Positions 33,447 to 43,128 of a stretch of 64,000 bases of DNA are shown piece by piece. The stretch lies in assembly GCA_004211905.1 (NCBI GenBank), contig SHBP01000001.1, forward strand, positions 124,001 to 188,000, given 5' to 3'. The notes under the pieces are model-generated. The model saw only the letters and a list, made by a program, of their open reading frames with translations. It did no database searches and was not told where the DNA came from. Origin of the DNA: SAR92 clade bacterium (lineage in GTDB: Bacteria > Pseudomonadota > Gammaproteobacteria > Pseudomonadales > Porticoccaceae). How positions within the stretch are numbered: the stretch's first letter is position 1; every line of letters starts with the position of its first letter. Position numbers and translations under genes: made by a program.

Positions 33447-34505
33447 CTAACTGGAGCTTGAGAACTCATGCACAGCATCGATAAAAATCTTGGCATTATC
33501 AGGGGCAATATCAGGGGTAATTCCATGACCAAGGTTGAACACATGGCCGTCATTCTTACCAAAAGATCCCAGGATTCTCTTAACCTCCCGCTGAATAACT
33601 TCTGGCTTGGCTCTTAGGATCGCTGGGTCCATGTTGCCTTGCAGAGCAACTTTATCACCAACTCGATGGCGAGCAGATCCTATATCTATCGTCCAATCAA
33701 GTCCGAGACAATCACAGCCTGTATTTGCCATAGCTTCTAACCAAAGACCACCCCCTTTGGTGAAAAGGATCACGGGTACGTCTCGGCCATCGGCCTGCTT
33801 AATCAGACCGTCGACAATCTTCGCCATGTATGTAAGAGAAAATTCAAGATAGGCACTATGGCTTAGGACACCTCCCCAGGTATCAAATATCTGTACTACC
33901 TGTGCACCTGCGAGAATCTGCGCATTTAGGTAATCAATAACAGAAAGAGCAAGTTTATCGAGTAGTTGGTGGAGTAACTCGGGCTGTGTGTATAGCATTG
34001 TTTTGGCGCGAGCAAAGTCACGACTGCTCTGCCCTTCAATCATATAGGTCGCCAATGTCCAAGGACTCCCTGAGAATCCAATTAAGGGAACACGACCATT
34101 CAGCTCTTGACGAATCATAGACACAGCATCAGTCACATAAGTTAGATCTATAGCCGTGTTAATCACCTCAAGTTGCTCTATATCTGCTTCGCTTCGCAAA
34201 GGTTTATGGAATTTAGGCCCTTCACCCTCAGCAAAATAAAGCCCTAAACCCATTGCATCAGGAATCGTTAGAATATCTGAAAAAAGAATCGCTGCATCTA
34301 ATTCAAATCTCTCAAGAGGTTGCAGAGTGACTTCACAGGCTAGTTCTGTATTTTTGCACAGGCTCATGAAGTCACCTGCCTGTCCCCTAACCTGACGGTA
34401 TTCAGGTAAATAGCGCCCTGCTTGGCGCATCATCCACACTGGTGTTTTATCAACCGGTTGCCGAGCTAATGCTCGTAAAAATCGATCGTTTTTTAATTCT
34501 GTCAT
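33447..34505 (-). CDS. hemE: uroporphyrinogen decarboxylase
   Basis: Decarboxylates the four acetate side chains of uroporphyrinogen III in heme synthesis (352 residues). The signature [16 protein letters not shown] near residue 22 binds the substrate carboxylates; [12 protein letters not shown] and [16 protein letters not shown] follow. It starts 29 bases after the diflavin reductase stop on the same strand, so it may share the gltB-like transcript. In Pseudomonas hemE likewise follows gltBD. Confidence 0.98.
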
Positions 34506-34534: not shown

Positions 34535-36286
34535 CTAGTATACGTCGCGTAGATAGCGTTTTTCACGCTTTAGATTATTAACATACTCTTTGGCCTTGTC
34601 ACTACTTAGACTACCCTGAGCCGCGATAATGTCGCAAAGAGCTTGGTCCACATCTTTCGCCATGCGAGTCGCATCTCCACAAACATAAAAATAGCCGCCA
34701 TTTTCGAGCCACTGGTAAAGTTCGGCGCCATGTTCATGCATTTTATTCTGTACATAAACTTTTTCTTTTTGATCCCTCGAAAAAGCTAAATCAAGGCGCG
34801 TCAGTACACCCGCCGCCTGCATCTCTATTAATTCCTGCTCATAAATAAAATCAGATGCTCTTGTTTGATCACCAAAAAACAACCAATTTTGGCCTTTTGC
34901 ACCGCGGATTTGGCGCTCTTCTAGAAAAGCCCTGAAAGGTGCTACCCCAGTACCAGGACCCACCATAATCATTGGAGCATCGTCGTTACTAGGGATTCGA
35001 AACGCTTTGTTAGGAGATATAAAAACTCCTGCTTTACCGTTCTTTGCAATTCGATCAGCCAAAAATGTGGAGCACACTCCAAGGTGGTCACGCCCATTAT
35101 CGTTCCATCGCACTGAAGCTACCGTTAAATGAACTGAACCTGGGTGTTTATTAGGACTTGAGGAAATCGAGTATGCTCGATGCTGCAGAGGCTTAAGCAA
35201 TGCTAAAAATTCTGACGCGGAAAAATATATATCAGAGTTTAGATTCAATAAATCAAGAGTATCCTTACCCCACAGGAAGTCGGCTAAAGCCTCTTTATCT
35301 CCATTTTTGACGACGTGGGAAAACATTTCATCTTTAGCTTGAGTCTCCACAGCAGCAATAAGCTTTCGGGAGGGGGTAGCAATTTCATATTGAAATGTCA
35401 GCAGTTCAGTAAGTGATTTTTCTTGATCCTCAAGAATAGTATCGCCACTCACTAAAAGTCGCTCTATAATCTTTGCCACTAATTTGTCATCGTTTACCGG
35501 CATAACATTTAGAGCATCCCCGGTGTCATAGACTAGCCCGCTGTCCCCTAAGTCAAACTCATAGTGTCGAATCTCTTTACCAGACAATTCACCAGAAAGC
35601 AGGTGATTAACAGCTAACGTGGCCGGGTATGGATTCTTTCTATTCCAAATGGATTTGACAACTGCAGGAGTGGGTTTGTCGACTGGAGCGACCGCTTGGC
35701 CGTCATTAGCTAAAGGAATCGTTTTATTAATCCATTCCTCCGCAACATCTTCAAAATCTACATCACAATCTAACCGATCGACCAGTCGCTGAGCACCGAG
35801 CTGCTCTAGACGCACATCAAGAAGCTTCCCCGCCTGACAGAAGTCGTCATACCCAGAGTCACCAAGTGCTAAAACGCCAAACTGCATGTCGGGTAATTTA
35901 GGCATATCCGAGCTATATATGCTCTCCCAAAATAATCCTGCATTATCTGGCATTTCTCCTTCACCATACGTGGCTATGGTGATAATAACTCTCCTCATCG
36001 CCGCGAATGCTTCTATGCTCACATCATCTAAACCTTGGACTATAGCCTGAAACCCCTGCGCTTTGGCTGTAGCTGCAGCATCCATTGCTAAACCCTCTGC
36101 ATTACCGGTTTGAGTACCATAGAGAATATTAACCAAGGGCGCAGTCGATGATGCAGTATTTGCAGCTGTACCCACTTGACTCCCAGTCATTGTTTTTGCC
36201 GATTGCATACCTGCAAGGAAGCCCGCTAACCAAGATTTTTGGTCACCAGTAAAAGGAGCATCTTCTGGTATAAATGGAAGTTTCAT
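34535..36286 (-). CDS. CysJ-like NADPH diflavin reductase in the gltD position
   Basis: 583 residues with the layout of sulfite reductase flavoprotein alpha subunits. A short N-terminal lead (IPEDAPFTGDQKSWLAGFLA) precedes a flavodoxin-like FMN domain (about 50-195, LYGTQTGNAEG, TYGEGEMPDNA, LGDSGYDDFC). An FAD domain (about 215-420, RAYSISSSP) and an NADPH domain (about 430-583, VGPGTGVAPFRAFLEER, YVCGDATRMAKDV, terminal KRYLRDVY) follow. No cysI hemoprotein gene is near. It lies 15 bases after the gltB-like gene and 29 before hemE, exactly where gltD sits in Pseudomonas. It may feed electrons to the GltB-like protein; assimilatory sulfite reduction is the alternative. Confidence 0.9.
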   Translation of the reverse strand: MKLPFIPEDAPFTGDQKSWLAGFLAGMQSAKTMTGSQVGTAANTASSTAPLVNILYGTQTGNAEGLAMDAAATAKAQGFQAIVQGLDDVSIEAFAAMRRVIITIATYGEGEMPDNAGLFWESIYSSDMPKLPDMQFGVLALGDSGYDDFCQAGKLLDVRLEQLGAQRLVDRLDCDVDFEDVAEEWINKTIPLANDGQAVAPVDKPTPAVVKSIWNRKNPYPATLAVNHLLSGELSGKEIRHYEFDLGDSGLVYDTGDALNVMPVNDDKLVAKIIERLLVSGDTILEDQEKSLTELLTFQYEIATPSRKLIAAVETQAKDEMFSHVVKNGDKEALADFLWGKDTLDLLNLNSDIYFSASEFLALLKPLQHRAYSISSSPNKHPGSVHLTVASVRWNDNGRDHLGVCSTFLADRIAKNGKAGVFISPNKAFRIPSNDDAPMIMVGPGTGVAPFRAFLEERQIRGAKGQNWLFFGDQTRASDFIYEQELIEMQAAGVLTRLDLAFSRDQKEKVYVQNKMHEHGAELYQWLENGGYFYVCGDATRMAKDVDQALCDIIAAQGSLSSDKAKEYVNNLKREKRYLRDVY

Positions 36287-36301
36287 TAAACGGCCTCAGT
36301 A

Positions 36302-39300
36302 TTAACTAACGTTGGGCAAAATATCACTCAACGCATTATGTGCAAAAAGTTCTTCAAAGCTTGGTATTCGACCTAACGCAACTTTATTTTTGTGCTGCTG
36401 ATGTAATATCCAACCATAGGTAGCCGGACTATCCATTGATAAAATATTTCGCAAACTCAGAGCTTCTTTAAAATCATTGAGACGCTTGCCCGCAATCATG
36501 GCAGCAAGTTCGGCTGCACTATACCCTGAAATAGCCTCGCGTGCATGCCGAAGTAGAGCATTCATCAAAGCAAAATCTTCGGTCAAAATGAGATTGCGAG
36601 TTATTTTAATCACATTGGGATCTTCCACTGATGTTGAACCAGGAAGCTTTTTAAGGGCTATTTTTTGAGCTGCATCGAGCACCGAGTAGGTATTTATTAG
36701 CTCGAACATATCGCCACTCTCAGACAAATCAGGGTTAGGAACTGAGCCTTTCATAACAGGCTGTCCAGAACGCCACGCCTTTTTAAGCTTATTGACTTGA
36801 AATGCCGCAAGAGCATTGGCGAGTTCCTCAGCTAGCTCTTTACGCGGCTTGGCCTCTAAAATTGCTTCAGAATCCTGATACTGTAATAGTGCTCGGGGAG
36901 TTAGATAAGCAAAATTGGCGCGCTCATCACTCCAATTTTTAAGAAACCAAGACGCCTTTTTAGATCCAGTTGCTTTAGCATGCCAGTGCAACATAGTGTG
37001 TATTGCTTGAGCATGAATTTCTGCTTCCTCAGTATTATTATCTAAATAACCCAGCAGCACAGAATCGTGGCTGATACAGTGAGTGAATTTCTTGTACGGA
37101 TCATATTGATAGGCAAACCCGCCTGACATACCGTTACCGAAACCCTTAGCAAATGCTCCTAAGTTCAGAACTGCGCCATTGGTCATGTACTCTGCACAGA
37201 AATCACCTACACCTTCAACCACTGCTGTAGCCCCTGAGTTACGCACAGCAAACCGATCACCAGCCTGGCCCTCAACAAACAGTCGGCCACCAGTAGCGCC
37301 AAATAGTGCAAAATTCCCAATGAGTACATTAGTCCCAGGTTTGTCAGACCCTCCTCGTGGTGCATGGATTATGAGCTCTCCACCGCAAGCAGTCTTACCA
37401 ACACCATCATTGCAAGTCCCCGTATGGTCCATCAGCATACCGTCGTTGCAGAATGCACCATAGGATTGACCTGCAGAGCCATGAGTCGTTATTTTTATTG
37501 CATGATTCCGCAGAAACCGCCTTCCTCGCCGGTCTGTGAGCACTGCAGGTAAATCAAGATCTCCCAGCTCATGATTGAGCATGCGCTCAATATCTATGGC
37601 AAGTTGACCACCCACACTCTTATTGCGGTTATTTAATGACTGGCTATTTGGTAATTCTATTGATAGCTGCTTTTGGTCTACCAAAGCCTTCCGAATGACG
37701 CCAATAAACCCTTCGTCAACGGCATAGTCACGTTCCATATAAATTGGCTGATCGACCTTTCGCTCCTCCACTACAGTCAGCATAGCTCTGAGATCTAACT
37801 GTCCCACCGATGAGGGGTGATCTAGCAGATGAATCAAATCACAGCGGCCTCTGGCCTCGCGCAACGATCTCAACCCCAGATCCGCAAGAATCTCTCTTAC
37901 TTCATGGGCAATATTGAGTAGATATTGTCCAAGGGCTCGTGGGTCACCATCAAACACCTCAGGATTTGTCGTTAAACCCGCTGGGCATTTGATATTACAG
38001 TTCTTTGCCATGACACACTTCAGCATCATCAACGCTGTAGTACCAAACTCAAAACTATCACCGCCCATTAAAGCTGATTTAACAACGTCTGACCCTGTTT
38101 GGTGGGCTCCAGAACATCGAAGAACGACCTTTTGGCGTAATCCGTTAGCACACAAAGCTTGGTGGACTTCAGCTATACCGATCTCTGCAGCCCGCCCTGT
38201 GTACTTTAAAGAAGTAACTGAAGCCGCCCCAGTGCCTCCAGTATTACCTGCCACATTAATCACATCAGCACCAGCTTTTGCCACGCCAACTGCGATTGTT
38301 CCAATGCCATCAGAAGAGACCAGTTTAACGATCACACGCACTCTGGCGGCTTTAGCATCGTGTATAAGCTGGGCCAAATCCTCAATCGAGTATGTATCAT
38401 GATGAGGTGGCGGTGAAATTAACTCTACACCAGGGACACCACCACGCGCAGCAGCTATCTCCACATTAACCTTGGGTGCGGGCAACTGACCACCTTCTCC
38501 TGGTTTAGCTCCCTGACCAATCTTTATCTCTATCTCTTCAAGCATTGGATCGGCTAGATAGCCAGCCCAAACGCCAAAGCGCCCAGAGGCAAATTGTTTG
38601 ATACGAGAGGCGCGGATAGTGCCGTAGCGAGAAAAATGCTCACCGCCTTCCCCACAATTAGACATTCCCCCAACCATATTGGTCCCATGAGCTACTGCTT
38701 CATGGGCAGTGGCAACCAAAGCACCGTGACTCATGGCACCGGAGGCTAAAAGCGGTGTGATTTCACTGGCAGGCTGAACCTCAGCTAAATCTGCTTTTGG
38801 TTTAGCTCTGCGCAAACGACTCACGTAATCCTGAGCGGCACCGGACACATGTAACGTCAAAATATCAGTGCTAATTGATTGGTTAATGATGTCTACGCCG
38901 AAACGATCAACAAATGAAGCGGCTAAAGCATCTAACCTTCCAGGTTGATCGGCCAGAGGACCTGTCAAACGGAGTGCACATTGATCATCTGCAAGCATTT
39001 CACAGTTTAAACCACGAATAACAAAATGATTGTTTCCCGCTCTGTTAAACAACATCATCTCATGCTTAAATTCACTCGATTTAGAGAGGAATGAAACATC
39101 TGCAGGGAATGCCAAGACATCTCTTAATGCAGCGGGCCTAGTAGATCTTTCCTCTGTCATAGCTCGAGAGAAGTCTCTATATCCGGGTGTGATCTTGAAC
39201 TCATTGATTTCTTGGGGTGAAAGTCGATCAAAACTCGTGTTGGTGTATCCCTCGTCGCTAATTCCAAAAGCACCCTCCATGCGATTAAGAGTCAAAAGTC

Positions 39301-41785
39301 TCAACACATCGTTGGTATCGGTATCATTGTCTGCGTCAAAAGCGATAGGTTCTTCGGTTAAATCAACAAAGCCGCGAACTGCTGCCACACCATATGAGTG
39401 TCCGGCACCACCGGCTCGCTCTTTGAAAAGCCCTAGCATAGGGATATCGCTTTCAACCTCACAAATGAGTGCTCGCTCATGCCAATCCGCGTGAGCTTGA
39501 GCAATCTCTGTAAAGCCCACCCCCCCAACTGGGGACTTCATATTTGGGAAATAGCGACGAAATACCGGATCGTTTGTGTTTAAGAAATTAGGCTCAAAAA
39601 ACTCTCCACCTGAATAGCTCTCTACAGTACAAAGACCAACCTTGCCCATGGTCTTCATCAAAGCTTTTTCGGCCGCCTTAGCAAACTTCTGATAAGCCCC
39701 ATCAGCATCATCAGAAAACTTATCTTCGGCACGCATCTGCACACCCATTGGATAAACTGCTGCGGCACCAAATCCCAAAGCACAAGCAACATGGTGTGAC
39801 GAACAAATTTGTCCGCTCTCAACAATCAAAGAAACTCTCAACCTGAGGCCCGTTTCAATAAGACGCTGATTAATCGCCGACACGATCAGAGTCATGGAAA
39901 TAGAACCGTGGGACCGTGTTACATGGCGATCACTAATGATAGCTATGCCACCTTGCTCCCGTGCAAACTGCTCAACATCGTCACAAACCCCGTCAATTCC
40001 GGCAATTAGCGATCTCTTATTTGCCTCTACGTCACCAAAGACAGGCTTAAATAACATTGAAAAACGACCAACAGGAGTCTCTTTCTGCGATCGAATTTTA
40101 AGTATCTGTGCATAATTAAGAATGGGGGATTCAAGAACTATTTGACGGCCAGGCTGAGCACCTATATTAGGTTTAGTCCCAAGAGCTACCCGCATAGTCA
40201 TTCCCTCGACTTCACGAATTGAATCTAGAGGCGGATTAGTTACTTGAGCAAAACGCTGGGAAAAATACTTAGCAACTCCTCCCTCATTGTCAGAGAGCGC
40301 ATTAATTGCATTGCCATAACCCATGGCAGACACCTTTTCAGTCCCAGTGGCCAGCATTGGATCTATCATGAAGCGAAAACATTCTTGATTTTGAGAATAG
40401 GCTACATATCGTCCCGCCAAAGGAAGGTCACCTGAGTAACTACTAGACAAGGAGGTTTCTTCACTGGGAATATCAGGCAAATCCTCAATTGCAATACGAG
40501 CTTTCTCAACTAAATTAAGGTAATTACGCTGACTGGCCAACAGCTCTAAAGCCTCTTCAGTGCCAAAAGAACGTTTCTGCTGGTGGTCATAATAGAGCAT
40601 TCCACCCGCTTCGATGCGTCCACGACTCAAAACAGATTCATCGCCAAAATCAATCTGGCCCGCTTCTGACATAACCGCTAAGTAAGTTTCAGTTTCTACA
40701 CTTCTGAGGGGTCTTAAGCCAAGTCTGTCCAACCGAGCACCAATGATTGAACCATCACCAAAAATTAACGCCGCAGGACCATCATTTTTTTCTTCATAGA
40801 GCGAAAAGTACTCGAGCATAGCCCGAACATTAGGTGAGAGCGTCTTATCGTTTTCCCATGCTGGCGGCATCATTGAAACGACCGCAGTAACCAAATCAAG
40901 ATCATCCTCAACCACTCGAGATTGAAGCGTCTGATCTAAACGACAACTATCCGACTGGCCCTTAGGTCGAATGATATTATTCTCTTTAGAACGAGCAATA
41001 GCAGCCTCAGAAAGGCGGTTCTTTTTATCAGTATTTAACTCTCCATTATGGGCCATCAACCGGAATGGCTGGGCCATAGACGGATGAGGGTCAGTATTGG
41101 TTGAAAACCGCGTATGAAAATAGAGCGTATGAATGCTATGGGATGCATCATTAAGATCTAGGAAATACGGAATAATTTCATTGGAATTTAAGCGGCCCTT
41201 CAAGACTTGCATCTTCGCTGACATCGATAAGGGATAGAGCCCATCGAAGTCTTCCTCTGTATAGGCTTTTGACTCAATGGCTAATAGGGCCTTGTGAATG
41301 GCTTTATCTAGCTCGGTACCTATAATCCCTTCTGGCGTAGCAAACACCCACTGGGCAATTGGTAATTGATATTTAACTGACGCCGGTCGCAAAACAGAAT
41401 TATCAACCTTCACATCGCGAGTTACAAGAATCTTCATGCCTTGGGCTTCTAATACTTGATCGACCAACTCTCTGGCACGCTGATGCTGACTTGGATCGTT
41501 TGGTAAAAAGAAGTTAGCCACTCCAAACTCACCAGGTGTTAACTCAGAATTAGTTACCTTATTAAAAAACTCAACTGATAAATCAACGGAAACACCCGCG
41601 CCATCTCCAACACCTTCAGCTGACATACCTCCACGGTGAGGTACCGCACAGAGAGCCTCATGCCCCTTAACTAAAAGTTCGTGGGTCTGCTTGCCATCTT
41701 TGCGAGTGAGAAACCCTACGCCACAGCTACTTTTTTCAAAAGTACTGTCGTAGAGGCCAAACTGTGTCGCTTCATTCATATTCAT
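36302..41785 (-). CDS. gltB: long variant of glutamate synthase large subunit
   Basis: 1827 residues, about 345 longer than typical GltB. A 20-residue propeptide precedes the nucleophile C21 (CGVGF) of the class II glutaminase domain, which keeps HNGELNT and DGPAALIFGDG. A central domain and an enlarged region before about 1010 follow. The FMN/synthase domain (about 1012-1400) has GQGAKPGEGGQLP and SPPPHHDTYSIEDLAQ, and the GXGXG helix domain lies near 1416-1566. About 195 further residues extend beyond the usual C-terminus. The 3Fe-4S ligands C1257, C1263, C1267 are spaced x5/x3 instead of x5/x4, and GNTGGTG replaces the usual GHDGGTG. No gltD follows; a diflavin reductase does. A decent promoter lies upstream. 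The substrate is probably 2-oxoglutarate plus glutamine, but a different acceptor is possible. Confidence 0.88.
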   Translation of the reverse strand: MNMNEATQFGLYDSTFEKSSCGVGFLTRKDGKQTHELLVKGHEALCAVPHRGGMSAEGVGDGAGVSVDLSVEFFNKVTNSELTPGEFGVANFFLPNDPSQHQRARELVDQVLEAQGMKILVTRDVKVDNSVLRPASVKYQLPIAQWVFATPEGIIGTELDKAIHKALLAIESKAYTEEDFDGLYPLSMSAKMQVLKGRLNSNEIIPYFLDLNDASHSIHTLYFHTRFSTNTDPHPSMAQPFRLMAHNGELNTDKKNRLSEAAIARSKENNIIRPKGQSDSCRLDQTLQSRVVEDDLDLVTAVVSMMPPAWENDKTLSPNVRAMLEYFSLYEEKNDGPAALIFGDGSIIGARLDRLGLRPLRSVETETYLAVMSEAGQIDFGDESVLSRGRIEAGGMLYYDHQQKRSFGTEEALELLASQRNYLNLVEKARIAIEDLPDIPSEETSLSSSYSGDLPLAGRYVAYSQNQECFRFMIDPMLATGTEKVSAMGYGNAINALSDNEGGVAKYFSQRFAQVTNPPLDSIREVEGMTMRVALGTKPNIGAQPGRQIVLESPILNYAQILKIRSQKETPVGRFSMLFKPVFGDVEANKRSLIAGIDGVCDDVEQFAREQGGIAIISDRHVTRSHGSISMTLIVSAINQRLIETGLRLRVSLIVESGQICSSHHVACALGFGAAAVYPMGVQMRAEDKFSDDADGAYQKFAKAAEKALMKTMGKVGLCTVESYSGGEFFEPNFLNTNDPVFRRYFPNMKSPVGGVGFTEIAQAHADWHERALICEVESDIPMLGLFKERAGGAGHSYGVAAVRGFVDLTEEPIAFDADNDTDTNDVLRLLTLNRMEGAFGISDEGYTNTSFDRLSPQEINEFKITPGYRDFSRAMTEERSTRPAALRDVLAFPADVSFLSKSSEFKHEMMLFNRAGNNHFVIRGLNCEMLADDQCALRLTGPLADQPGRLDALAASFVDRFGVDIINQSISTDILTLHVSGAAQDYVSRLRRAKPKADLAEVQPASEITPLLASGAMSHGALVATAHEAVAHGTNMVGGMSNCGEGGEHFSRYGTIRASRIKQFASGRFGVWAGYLADPMLEEIEIKIGQGAKPGEGGQLPAPKVNVEIAAARGGVPGVELISPPPHHDTYSIEDLAQLIHDAKAARVRVIVKLVSSDGIGTIAVGVAKAGADVINVAGNTGGTGAASVTSLKYTGRAAEIGIAEVHQALCANGLRQKVVLRCSGAHQTGSDVVKSALMGGDSFEFGTTALMMLKCVMAKNCNIKCPAGLTTNPEVFDGDPRALGQYLLNIAHEVREILADLGLRSLREARGRCDLIHLLDHPSSVGQLDLRAMLTVVEERKVDQPIYMERDYAVDEGFIGVIRKALVDQKQLSIELPNSQSLNNRNKSVGGQLAIDIERMLNHELGDLDLPAVLTDRRGRRFLRNHAIKITTHGSAGQSYGAFCNDGMLMDHTGTCNDGVGKTACGGELIIHAPRGGSDKPGTNVLIGNFALFGATGGRLFVEGQAGDRFAVRNSGATAVVEGVGDFCAEYMTNGAVLNLGAFAKGFGNGMSGGFAYQYDPYKKFTHCISHDSVLLGYLDNNTEEAEIHAQAIHTMLHWHAKATGSKKASWFLKNWSDERANFAYLTPRALLQYQDSEAILEAKPRKELAEELANALAAFQVNKLKKAWRSGQPVMKGSVPNPDLSESGDMFELINTYSVLDAAQKIALKKLPGSTSVEDPNVIKITRNLILTEDFALMNALLRHAREAISGYSAAELAAMIAGKRLNDFKEALSLRNILSMDSPATYGWILHQQHKNKVALGRIPSFEELFAHNALSDILPNVS

Positions 41786-42015: not shown

Positions 42016-43128
42016 TTATGAACCGCATGCGCTAATTAAAACTTTTTCCAGCAAACTTTCAGAAGAGTCAACCTCAACATAGGCATCCCCTAATGCTCTA
42101 AGTAATACAAGCCTGAGCTTGCCATCAAGCACTTTCTTATCTCGATACATTAATGAGGTAAAGTCAGTCGAAACCATATCATCCGGCGGTCTTGATGGTA
42201 GAGAAAAAACCTCTAGTAGACTCCTGATTCTTTGCACATCTTGATCGACTAGATGCCCTGCAAGCACAGAAACCTCCATCGCCATTAACATTCCTATGGC
42301 CACTGCTTCCCCATGTAAAAAACCAGTGTATTCTTGAAATGTCTCAATAGCGTGACCAAAAGTATGTCCAAGATTAAGTATTGCCCGCATACCTTGTTCG
42401 GTTTCATCGGCACTGACAACCATAGCCTTATCAATACACGACTTTTCTATAGCATAAGCTAGGGCATTCTCGTCGCGATTCAATAACTTCTGTGCGTTAG
42501 TTTCCAACCACTGTAAAAAGTCATAATCCGTTATCAAACCATATTTAATCACTTCGGCCATGCCCGCAGCGAACTGCTTGTTTGGAAGTGTATTTAGAAC
42601 ATTCAGATCAATAACAACGGCTCTTGGTTGGTGAAAAGCCCCTAACATATTCTTGCCCAACGCGTGATTGACCCCTGTTTTTCCACCAACAGAGGAATCT
42701 ACCTGAGCTAACAATGTAGTGGGTATCTGAATAAATGGGACGCCACGCTGATATGATGCGGCGGCAAAACCAGCCATATCTCCAACAACCCCTCCACCTA
42801 AAGCGATCAAGGTTGTCTTTCGATCGTGCTTTTTCTCTATCAACTTGGTGAAAATCCAATTTAAATGATCTAAGTTTTTAAATCTCTCACCATCAGGCAA
42901 CACTACAACATCCACCTGCTTTTCATCGAGGCTGCCTAGAACTAAATCTAGGTATAAGGACGCTATTGTGTCATTAGTAACGATTAAGGCTTTTTGACCC
43001 TGTATGTATGTATTCAGATTAACTCTAGATAGCTCTGCTGAACCTATAAAAATGGGGTAGCTTCTGTCGCCTAAATCGACCTGCACAACTTTTGAGGCAC
43101 TATCAGTAGGGCTTGGAGATTTGATCAT
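42016..43128 (-). CDS. aroB: 3-dehydroquinate synthase
   Basis: The second enzyme of the shikimate pathway, converting DAHP to dehydroquinate with NAD and a metal ion (370 residues). LPDGERFKNLDHLNWIFTKL, ALGGGVVGDMAGFAAASYQRG, TTLLAQVDSSVGGKTGVNH and LNLGHTFGHAIE are family motifs, the last with metal-binding His residues. It follows aroK after 87 bases. In Pseudomonas damX would come next; here the gltB-like gene does. Confidence 0.97.
   Translation of the reverse strand: MIKSPSPTDSASKVVQVDLGDRSYPIFIGSAELSRVNLNTYIQGQKALIVTNDTIASLYLDLVLGSLDEKQVDVVVLPDGERFKNLDHLNWIFTKLIEKKHDRKTTLIALGGGVVGDMAGFAAASYQRGVPFIQIPTTLLAQVDSSVGGKTGVNHALGKNMLGAFHQPRAVVIDLNVLNTLPNKQFAAGMAEVIKYGLITDYDFLQWLETNAQKLLNRDENALAYAIEKSCIDKAMVVSADETEQGMRAILNLGHTFGHAIETFQEYTGFLHGEAVAIGMLMAMEVSVLAGHLVDQDVQRIRSLLEVFSLPSRPPDDMVSTDFTSLMYRDKKVLDGKLRLVLLRALGDAYVEVDSSESLLEKVLISACGS

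Follow-up and report, generated by a model that had tools for sequence, protein, structure and literature searches.

The gene pair and its protein domains

Two adjacent genes on the reverse strand of the window (the whole stretch of 64,000 nucleotides that was analyzed) occupy the slot held by gltBD in related genomes: a long gltB-like gene (36302..41785), read as a 1827-aa ORF with the Pfam domains GATase_2, Glu_syn_central, Glu_synthase, and GXGXG in canonical order, and, 15 bp downstream by the window ORFs, a gene for a CysJ-like diflavin reductase (DFR; 34535..36286), a 583-aa ORF identified by Pfam. The slot is bordered downstream by hemE (33447..34505) and upstream by aroB (42016..43128), both ORFs on the same strand, and the canonical loci examined have the same borders. 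Inspection of the window ORFs over 24-50 kb gives the order pilMNOPQ-aroK-aroB-gltB-X-hemE, in which X is DFR. An earlier note had likened this order to the pseudomonad gltBD locus and had described X as a complete CysJ-like diflavin reductase 15 bp from a variant gltB, with no cysI nearby and with gltD missing. All of this is borne out: the order is correct and the slot is shared with canonical relatives, DFR has the full flavodoxin-FAD-NAD(P)H layout by Pfam, and the 1827-aa GltB carries two extra regions absent from short GltBs. NIR_SIR matches in the genome (contigs C2 and C4) all lie outside the window, with the cysI on C4 adjoining a CysJ of ~600 aa, and the whole draft genome (90.9% complete) has neither a Fer4_20/GltD match nor a second full GltB.

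The long GltB begins with a class II glutaminase domain (residues 21-422; 40520..41725; PF00310, E 1e-84) that starts at the cysteine of CGVGF, followed by the glutamate synthase central domain (residues 461-731; 39593..40405; PF04898, E 7e-72), an extra region of ~190 aa (38816..39382), the FMN/2-oxoglutarate Glu_synthase domain (residues 994-1305; 37871..38806; PF01645, E 5e-102), the GXGXG beta-helix domain (residues 1414-1586; 37028..37546; PF01493, E 3e-51), and an all-helical C-terminal extension of ~190 aa (36305..36886) that is the hallmark of the long family (all on the reverse strand). By alignment, the extra region, at about residues 800-990, has no counterpart in short GltBs, and the tail, after residue 1633, has none in canonical GltBs. 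An AlphaFold model of the insertion (residues 765-1000) is largely poorly resolved (mean pLDDT 64.8) apart from a compact, confident alpha/beta end near residues 895-1000 (block means 64-96 from residue 895), while the modeled tail (residues 1600-1827) is all-helical with a mean pLDDT of 83.4; neither model matches a PDB fold at E ≤ 0.001, the best match having E 0.07 and ArgR-like matches starting at 0.19. The whole protein narrowly misses the NCBIfam model for the glutamate synthase large subunit, PRK11750 (1039.7 against a cut-off of 1047 bits).

The [3Fe-4S] motif of the window protein, CVMAKNCNIKC (37985..38017, reverse strand), has the spacing C-x5-C-x3-C, a residue short of the canonical GltB spacing. 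This spacing is present in 24/24 long GltBs that were found without use of the motif (11 from the genus, 7 from distant carriers, 2 from alphaproteobacteria, and 4 on plasmids) and in 0/8 canonical (short) GltBs, all eight of which have C-x5-C-x4-C. It is also present in 79/79 of a larger set of long GltBs, in which 71 rows had been preselected for CVMAKNC; this set omits nine of the 80 named loci described below (short, broken, or ambiguous), and those nine have the same spacing. Across the larger set, HNGELN, GA[KR]PGEGGQLP, and PPPHHD are each found in 79/79 proteins, PHRGG, GEGGEH, and the CGVGF pattern each in 78/79, and KQ-x-ASGRFGV in 64/79; from GltS structures, we take these to be motifs of glutaminase activity and of FMN and substrate binding. 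CVMAKNC is presumably also tied to GlxD/N-methylglutamate synthase. An origin of the FMN domain from that family was considered and dropped on profile scores, because stand-alone Glu_synthase proteins (eight, found in three distant carriers) reach only 118-143 bits on an FMN-domain profile (made from long and short GltB rows together), against 551-616 for canonical GltBs.

DFR joins a flavodoxin (FMN) domain (residues 54-185; 35732..36127; PF00258, E 2e-29), an FAD-binding domain (residues 216-408; 35063..35641; PF00667, E 2e-28), and an NAD(P)H-binding domain (residues 441-547; 34646..34966; PF00175, E 9e-15), all on the reverse strand, in a single chain, and so meets the criterion for a diflavin reductase by Pfam; CysJ, P450 reductase, and NO synthase are among its relatives with solved structures. 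It passes PRK06214, named "sulfite reductase subunit alpha" (464 against a cut-off of 432), and lies below both cysJ equivalog cut-offs (TIGR01931, 597.5 against 668; PRK10953, 495 against 838). Four of its five cysteines (150, 174, 405, and 536) are conserved in ≥97% of the 78 homologues aligned, and by eye their spacing forms no cluster-type motif.

Linkage and mutual exclusion with gltBD in the genus

The pair was followed through 56 relatives (the genome itself, 34 others of the same genus, and 21 of the same order). Long GltB occurs in 11 of these genomes, all of the genus, at 83-100% identity; canonical GltB occurs in 44, mostly as a single frame of ~1490 aa but in a few cases broken or split between contigs, and G012, a low-completeness draft, has neither. 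Canonical matches that run over several frames or two contigs (G009, G013, G017, G031, and G036) suggest frameshifts or draft breaks. DFR adjoins long GltB in 11/11 carriers and adjoins no GltB in the other 45 genomes, and this adjacency is therefore not due to chance. Canonical GltD (Fer4_20) is distributed in the opposite way, being found in 0/11 long-GltB genomes vs. 44/45 others. Two of the carriers (G015 and G023) do have a Fer4_20 protein of another kind, of ~595 aa and with an N-terminally cut match; four canonical genomes have the same type on top of their GltD. Other, weaker matches to DFR consist of CysJ-type proteins (at 36-40% identity, in five long-GltB genomes), flavodoxins, and other reductases, and in one canonical relative (G054) a 580-aa frame matches DFR in two parts at 41%, on a contig other than that of its gltBD.

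The chromosomal slot was compared in all 11 long loci and in eight of the 44 canonical loci (six from the genus and two from the order). hemE follows in 19/19 of these loci and aroB precedes in 18/19, the exception being the long locus of G006, where the aroB side is lost at a contig end. In a tree of HemE and AroB from the 19 loci (without AroB for G006), the 11 carriers form one clade with an ultrafast bootstrap of 95. Given the shared slot and this single clade on the flanking genes, the simplest reading of these sequences would be a single swap in place of gltBD. Between psd and hemE, four of the six canonical genus loci examined have a 481-aa ORF (L058:2868-4313); it is absent from L062, L061 ends there, and it was not found in the long-GltB loci.

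With PF00208 (glutamate/leucine dehydrogenase) as the only glutamate dehydrogenase model searched, no genome of the genus has a full-length strong match. The matches in carriers are partial and weak (E ≥ 1.3e-5, in frames of 248-362 aa), with none in G006 and G032; among the canonical genus relatives, eight show matches at E 1e-10 to 1e-14, with frames of 300-424 aa, and three show weak matches in proteins of ~1600 aa. Since the carriers have no canonical GltD and, by this model, no clear glutamate dehydrogenase, long GltB with DFR appears to provide the sole GOGAT route detected in their drafts, which are 74-98% complete.

Distribution beyond the genus and possible links to iron

A profile of the C-terminal tail was searched in 369 genomes of the class and 398 of the phylum, and matched four and six of them, respectively (the genome of the window is counted in both). 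Seven distinct distant carriers, from six other families, all have an adjacent DFR, at 48-60% identity. Five of the seven (G303, G204, G761, G778, and G581) lack both a Fer4_20 match and any further full-length GltB; the gammaproteobacterial carriers G349 and G477 also keep a canonical gltBD set. In G477, the canonical gltB-gltD lies directly upstream of the long gltB-DFR (L080, 8067-18905), and a Fur-like box lies between the two. Around the alphaproteobacterial carrier G803, a sample of 385 genomes gave three strong tail-profile matches, G803 included, and 17 weak ones that extend no further than the first ~60 positions of the profile, most of them in frames as long as canonical GltB; both of the new carriers, which were found by the tail profile alone, have DFR adjacent. 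With so few matches in the class, phylum, and G803-centered samples, the pair is, as far as sequence searches can tell, patchy and rare in random samples.

Named loci were collected by scanning for two short peptide patterns, one of them CVMAKNC; the best 80 of 496 confirmed stretches were kept. All of these 80 have a long-GltB match (cut by a contig end or split over frames in L092, L094, L107, L108, L122, L124, L131, L136, and L155), and eight of them (L082-L088 and L105) look like contigs already counted in the genome searches. These best 80 include loci of SAR92/HTCC2207/Porticoccaceae, rhizobia, roseobacters, Rhodococcus, Mycobacteroides, Herbiconiux, Comamonas, and Methylobacillus; in broader terms, the pair turns up in Alpha-, Beta-, and Gammaproteobacteria and in Actinobacteria. 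Nine plasmid records contain full-length matches at 60-70%, and the four plasmids examined all carry the pair, annotated as "glutamate synthase-related protein" or gltB together with a sulfite reductase name. Pairwise distances of GltB and DFR correlate (Pearson r 0.92 over 78 loci; L115 was omitted for lack of a DFR frame), as expected of genes moving together, although shared descent alone also raises this value. Four mycobacterial loci (L117, L125, L126, and L140) have a second diflavin reductase ~3 kb upstream on the other strand, 44-45% identical to the DFR of the window.

The earlier note had suggested testing whether DFR co-occurs next to long GltB in other genomes and gltD does not. 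DFR is adjacent in 11/11 genus carriers, 7/7 distant carriers, and 79/80 among the best 80 of 496 named loci, the exception (L094) ending at a contig edge. A normal gltD with a short gltB elsewhere in the genome, which the note would have counted against its reading, is absent from 11/11 genus carriers and 5/7 distant carriers, but a GltD-like Fer4_20 protein is present in 43/48 named carriers tested (48 of the 80 loci; canonical GltB was not part of this search) and is thus usual in carriers outside the marine groups. The five without it are two Planktomarina MAGs, two SAR92/Porticoccaceae genomes, and one Tepidamorphaceae MAG. This agrees with the long pair being an additional isozyme in many carriers and the only such enzyme in some marine lineages, with the reservation that drafts can miss genes.

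Several features of the neighborhoods point toward iron. A HemS/ChuX-like gene directly follows DFR in 24/73 examined loci by BLAST clustering, which found no such gene in the other 49, some of them cut by contig ends. Among 13 HemS-type proteins compared with Pfam (12 from the 24 loci and one from a Ketogulonicigenium plasmid), eight exceed the HemS cut-off and five are sub-threshold. In Ketogulonicigenium, a siderophore operon with a TonB siderophore receptor and an fhu transporter lies downstream of the pair. By eye, FecI-like, FecR-like, and TonB-receptor-like ORFs lie directly upstream of the long gltB in the distant carrier G761 (L077, 13902-17911). A Pfam scan of neighboring ORFs, limited to the 25 commonest of 115 families and to crude greedy calling (145 ORFs called as far as about L151, 129 scanned), found no recurrent family beyond HemS/ChuX (six members, E 1e-4); siderophore-interacting proteins account for two members.

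Upstream of long gltB, a Fur-like box in G349 is matched by 0/500 shuffles and a weaker one in G477 by 11/500, while no Fur box was found in the five distant carriers without gltBD (92-469 of 500 shuffles as good) or in ten readable SAR92-type upstream regions (84-191 of 200). IdeR-like boxes were sought in 13 actinobacterial regions and are present in Herbiconiux (0/500 shuffles), four Mycobacteroides/Mycobacterium (1-9/500), two Rhodococcus (4-6/500), R. erythropolis (6/500), and, weakly, one further Rhodococcus (34/500), with none in four Rhodococcus regions (100-499 of 500). Three of these four box-negative Rhodococcus genomes (L130, L134, and L141) have Fer4_20 proteins; the presence of GltD is thus no predictor of a box, and an iron-box rule is not general. 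Phylogeny ties the box tests to one another, several kinds of box were tried, and L122 and L144 were omitted because the start was not matched; a search of upstream regions for Irr boxes gave nothing consistent. In many Rhizobiales upstream regions (L098-L160), a TTGACT promoter-like element precedes a palindrome of a different kind, near GTCAG-N5-CTGAC, that overlaps the putative start site. Together, the Fur- and IdeR-like boxes and the haem and siderophore genes hint at an iron-sparing isozyme in some GltD-keeping genomes.

A proposed glutamate synthase and its relation to known systems

When ammonium is scarce, it enters biomass mainly through glutamate synthase, and the standard enzymes receive their electrons either from NADPH or NADH through GltD-type subunits or from ferredoxin. 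The gene pair, its near-invariant linkage, its mutual exclusion with gltBD at the level of the genus, and its conserved motifs are direct observations, as is the lack, in the genus carriers, of any other glutamate-forming enzyme among those searched for. Both genes probably specify parts of a single enzyme, a glutamate synthase in which the long GltB is reduced by DFR instead of GltD, as the earlier note had inferred for a flavodoxin-FNR fusion; the slot and the 11/11 vs. 0/45 linkage support that inference, while the electron path, docking, reaction, and iron sparing remain inferred. In the proposed path, electrons would pass from NADPH to the FAD and then the FMN of DFR, and from there, singly, to the [3Fe-4S] cluster and finally the FMN of GltB, DFR taking the place of the FAD and two [4Fe-4S] clusters of GltD. 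The glutaminase domain of GltB would free ammonia, which would combine with 2-oxoglutarate at the GltB FMN site to give 2-iminoglutarate, to be reduced to glutamate by that FMN. The shorter [3Fe-4S] loop, the insertion, and the helical tail may together shape a docking site for the flavodoxin domain.

The alternative that survives best, though it is improbable, is that the pair acts as a glutamine amidotransferase with some other 2-oxo acid or acceptor as the target of its reductive amination, and is no true glutamate synthase. Where Fer4_20 is present, as in the 43 of 48 named carriers with a GltD-like protein, the pair could indeed have another job, and the two extra GltB regions without a known fold would be compatible with another acceptor; against this, the pair replaces gltBD in place in genomes where it supplies the only full GltB and where no clear glutamate dehydrogenase was found, and it retains the motifs of the FMN and substrate sites. 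Still harder to sustain is the possibility that long GltB is of the ferredoxin type, reduced by any ferredoxin or flavodoxin, with DFR dispensable. Like ferredoxin-GltS, it has no GltD partner, but its alignment to the ferredoxin-dependent enzyme 1llw breaks at chain 915-933, an insertion that we assume to be the ferredoxin loop and that has no counterpart in long GltB; moreover, DFR is present at nearly every locus, with distances that track those of GltB.

A role of DFR chiefly in feeding the HemS/ChuX-type haem-degrading protein, with gltB a mere passenger of an iron regulon, can draw on the 24/73 loci in which such a gene lies beside DFR and has very little else in its favor, since the other 49 loci (some cut by contig ends) show no such gene, hemE directly follows DFR in the SAR92-type slot, and the near-invariant partner of DFR is GltB. 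The least credible alternative, that DFR is a CysJ for sulfite reduction and only a chance neighbor of gltB, agrees with the label "sulfite reductase subunit alpha" in plasmid records and with the 36-40% identity of DFR to CysJ-type proteins beside cysI in five carriers, but it is rejected on the counts themselves, because a NIR_SIR protein is absent in 6/11 long-GltB genomes and cysI in the remaining five adjoins a separate CysJ-type protein of ~600 aa, and DFR, which falls below the cysJ cut-offs, adjoins long GltB across several classes. A cysI without another reductase partner, which by the earlier note would have told against the proposal, was looked for in all 11 genus carriers and not encountered.

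Taking the pair, then, as a glutamate synthase reduced by DFR, an economy of iron would follow from cluster arithmetic. Canonical NADPH-GltS contains one [3Fe-4S] and two [4Fe-4S] clusters (PMC8097209); canonical GltBD thus sums to 11 Fe per protomer, and the variant would need three, which is what would make it an iron-sparing glutamate synthase. Glutamate synthase is also linked to iron elsewhere: both glutamate synthase genes (gltBD) of Caulobacter are down under iron limitation (PMC3751524), and the iron-sparing targets of B. subtilis include glutamate synthase (PMC9938188). The pair may thus be a way to make glutamate with far less iron. It would serve as an iron-regulated second isozyme in some GltD-keeping bacteria and as the sole enzyme in the SAR92-type lineage. 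The wider proposal, on which the evidence is evenly balanced, is of a further class of glutamate synthase (GltB-long plus DFR) that spares iron, is induced by iron starvation beside GltBD in rhizobia, roseobacters, and actinomycetes, and has settled as the sole glutamate synthase of marine SAR92-type, and perhaps of Planktomarina-type, bacteria following a swap into the gltBD locus. If true, a widespread version with a flavin-only reductase would extend a textbook enzyme by one class, the name "sulfite reductase subunit alpha", misleading for DFR, would be corrected, and nitrogen assimilation would be tied to iron economy in ocean and soil bacteria; for SAR92-type genomes without gltD, any pathway call that depends on gltD would mistakenly give GS-GOGAT as missing.

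As the earlier note had supposed, no description of a diflavin reductase as the partner of GltB was found in the open-access literature (subscription papers and preprints were outside its scope, and a description in print is possible), nor was anything on the pair found in PMC9409073. The closest precedent for exchanging the reductase of a glutamate synthase for another module is that of the putative F420H2-dependent glutamate synthases (FGltS) proposed for methanogens, which are likewise inferred from genomes (PMC3448663); their reductase is given there as an archaeal F420H2 dehydrogenase with Fe-S centers, whereas that of the long pair is a diflavin reductase. Database entries named "glutamate synthase-related protein" and "sulfite reductase subunit alpha" are this same gene pair under automatic names that assign it no function as a pair.

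Among the established enzymes, NADPH-GltBD of the Azospirillum brasilense and E. coli type shares with the long pair the GltB domain order, the class II glutaminase, the FMN site, the three-cysteine [3Fe-4S] motif, the two-gene operon, and, in this genus, the chromosomal slot. The long pair differs in having a diflavin reductase and no GltD, and therefore no two [4Fe-4S] clusters, in the spacing C-x5-C-x3-C instead of C-x5-C-x4-C, and in the ~190-aa insertion and ~190-aa helical tail added to GltB. Ferredoxin-GltS (Synechocystis, PDB 1llw/1ofd) shares the large subunit without GltD, but the long pair has a dedicated NADPH diflavin reductase next door and the extra GltB regions. CysJ, the flavoprotein of assimilatory sulfite reductase, has the same flavodoxin-FAD-NADP(H) layout, yet DFR scores below both of its equivalog cut-offs and is partnered by GltB, where the partner of CysJ is CysI. 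Since each of these families fails a tested feature, the pair is filed as a new glutamate synthase variant, outside the GltBD, ferredoxin-GltS, and CysJ families.
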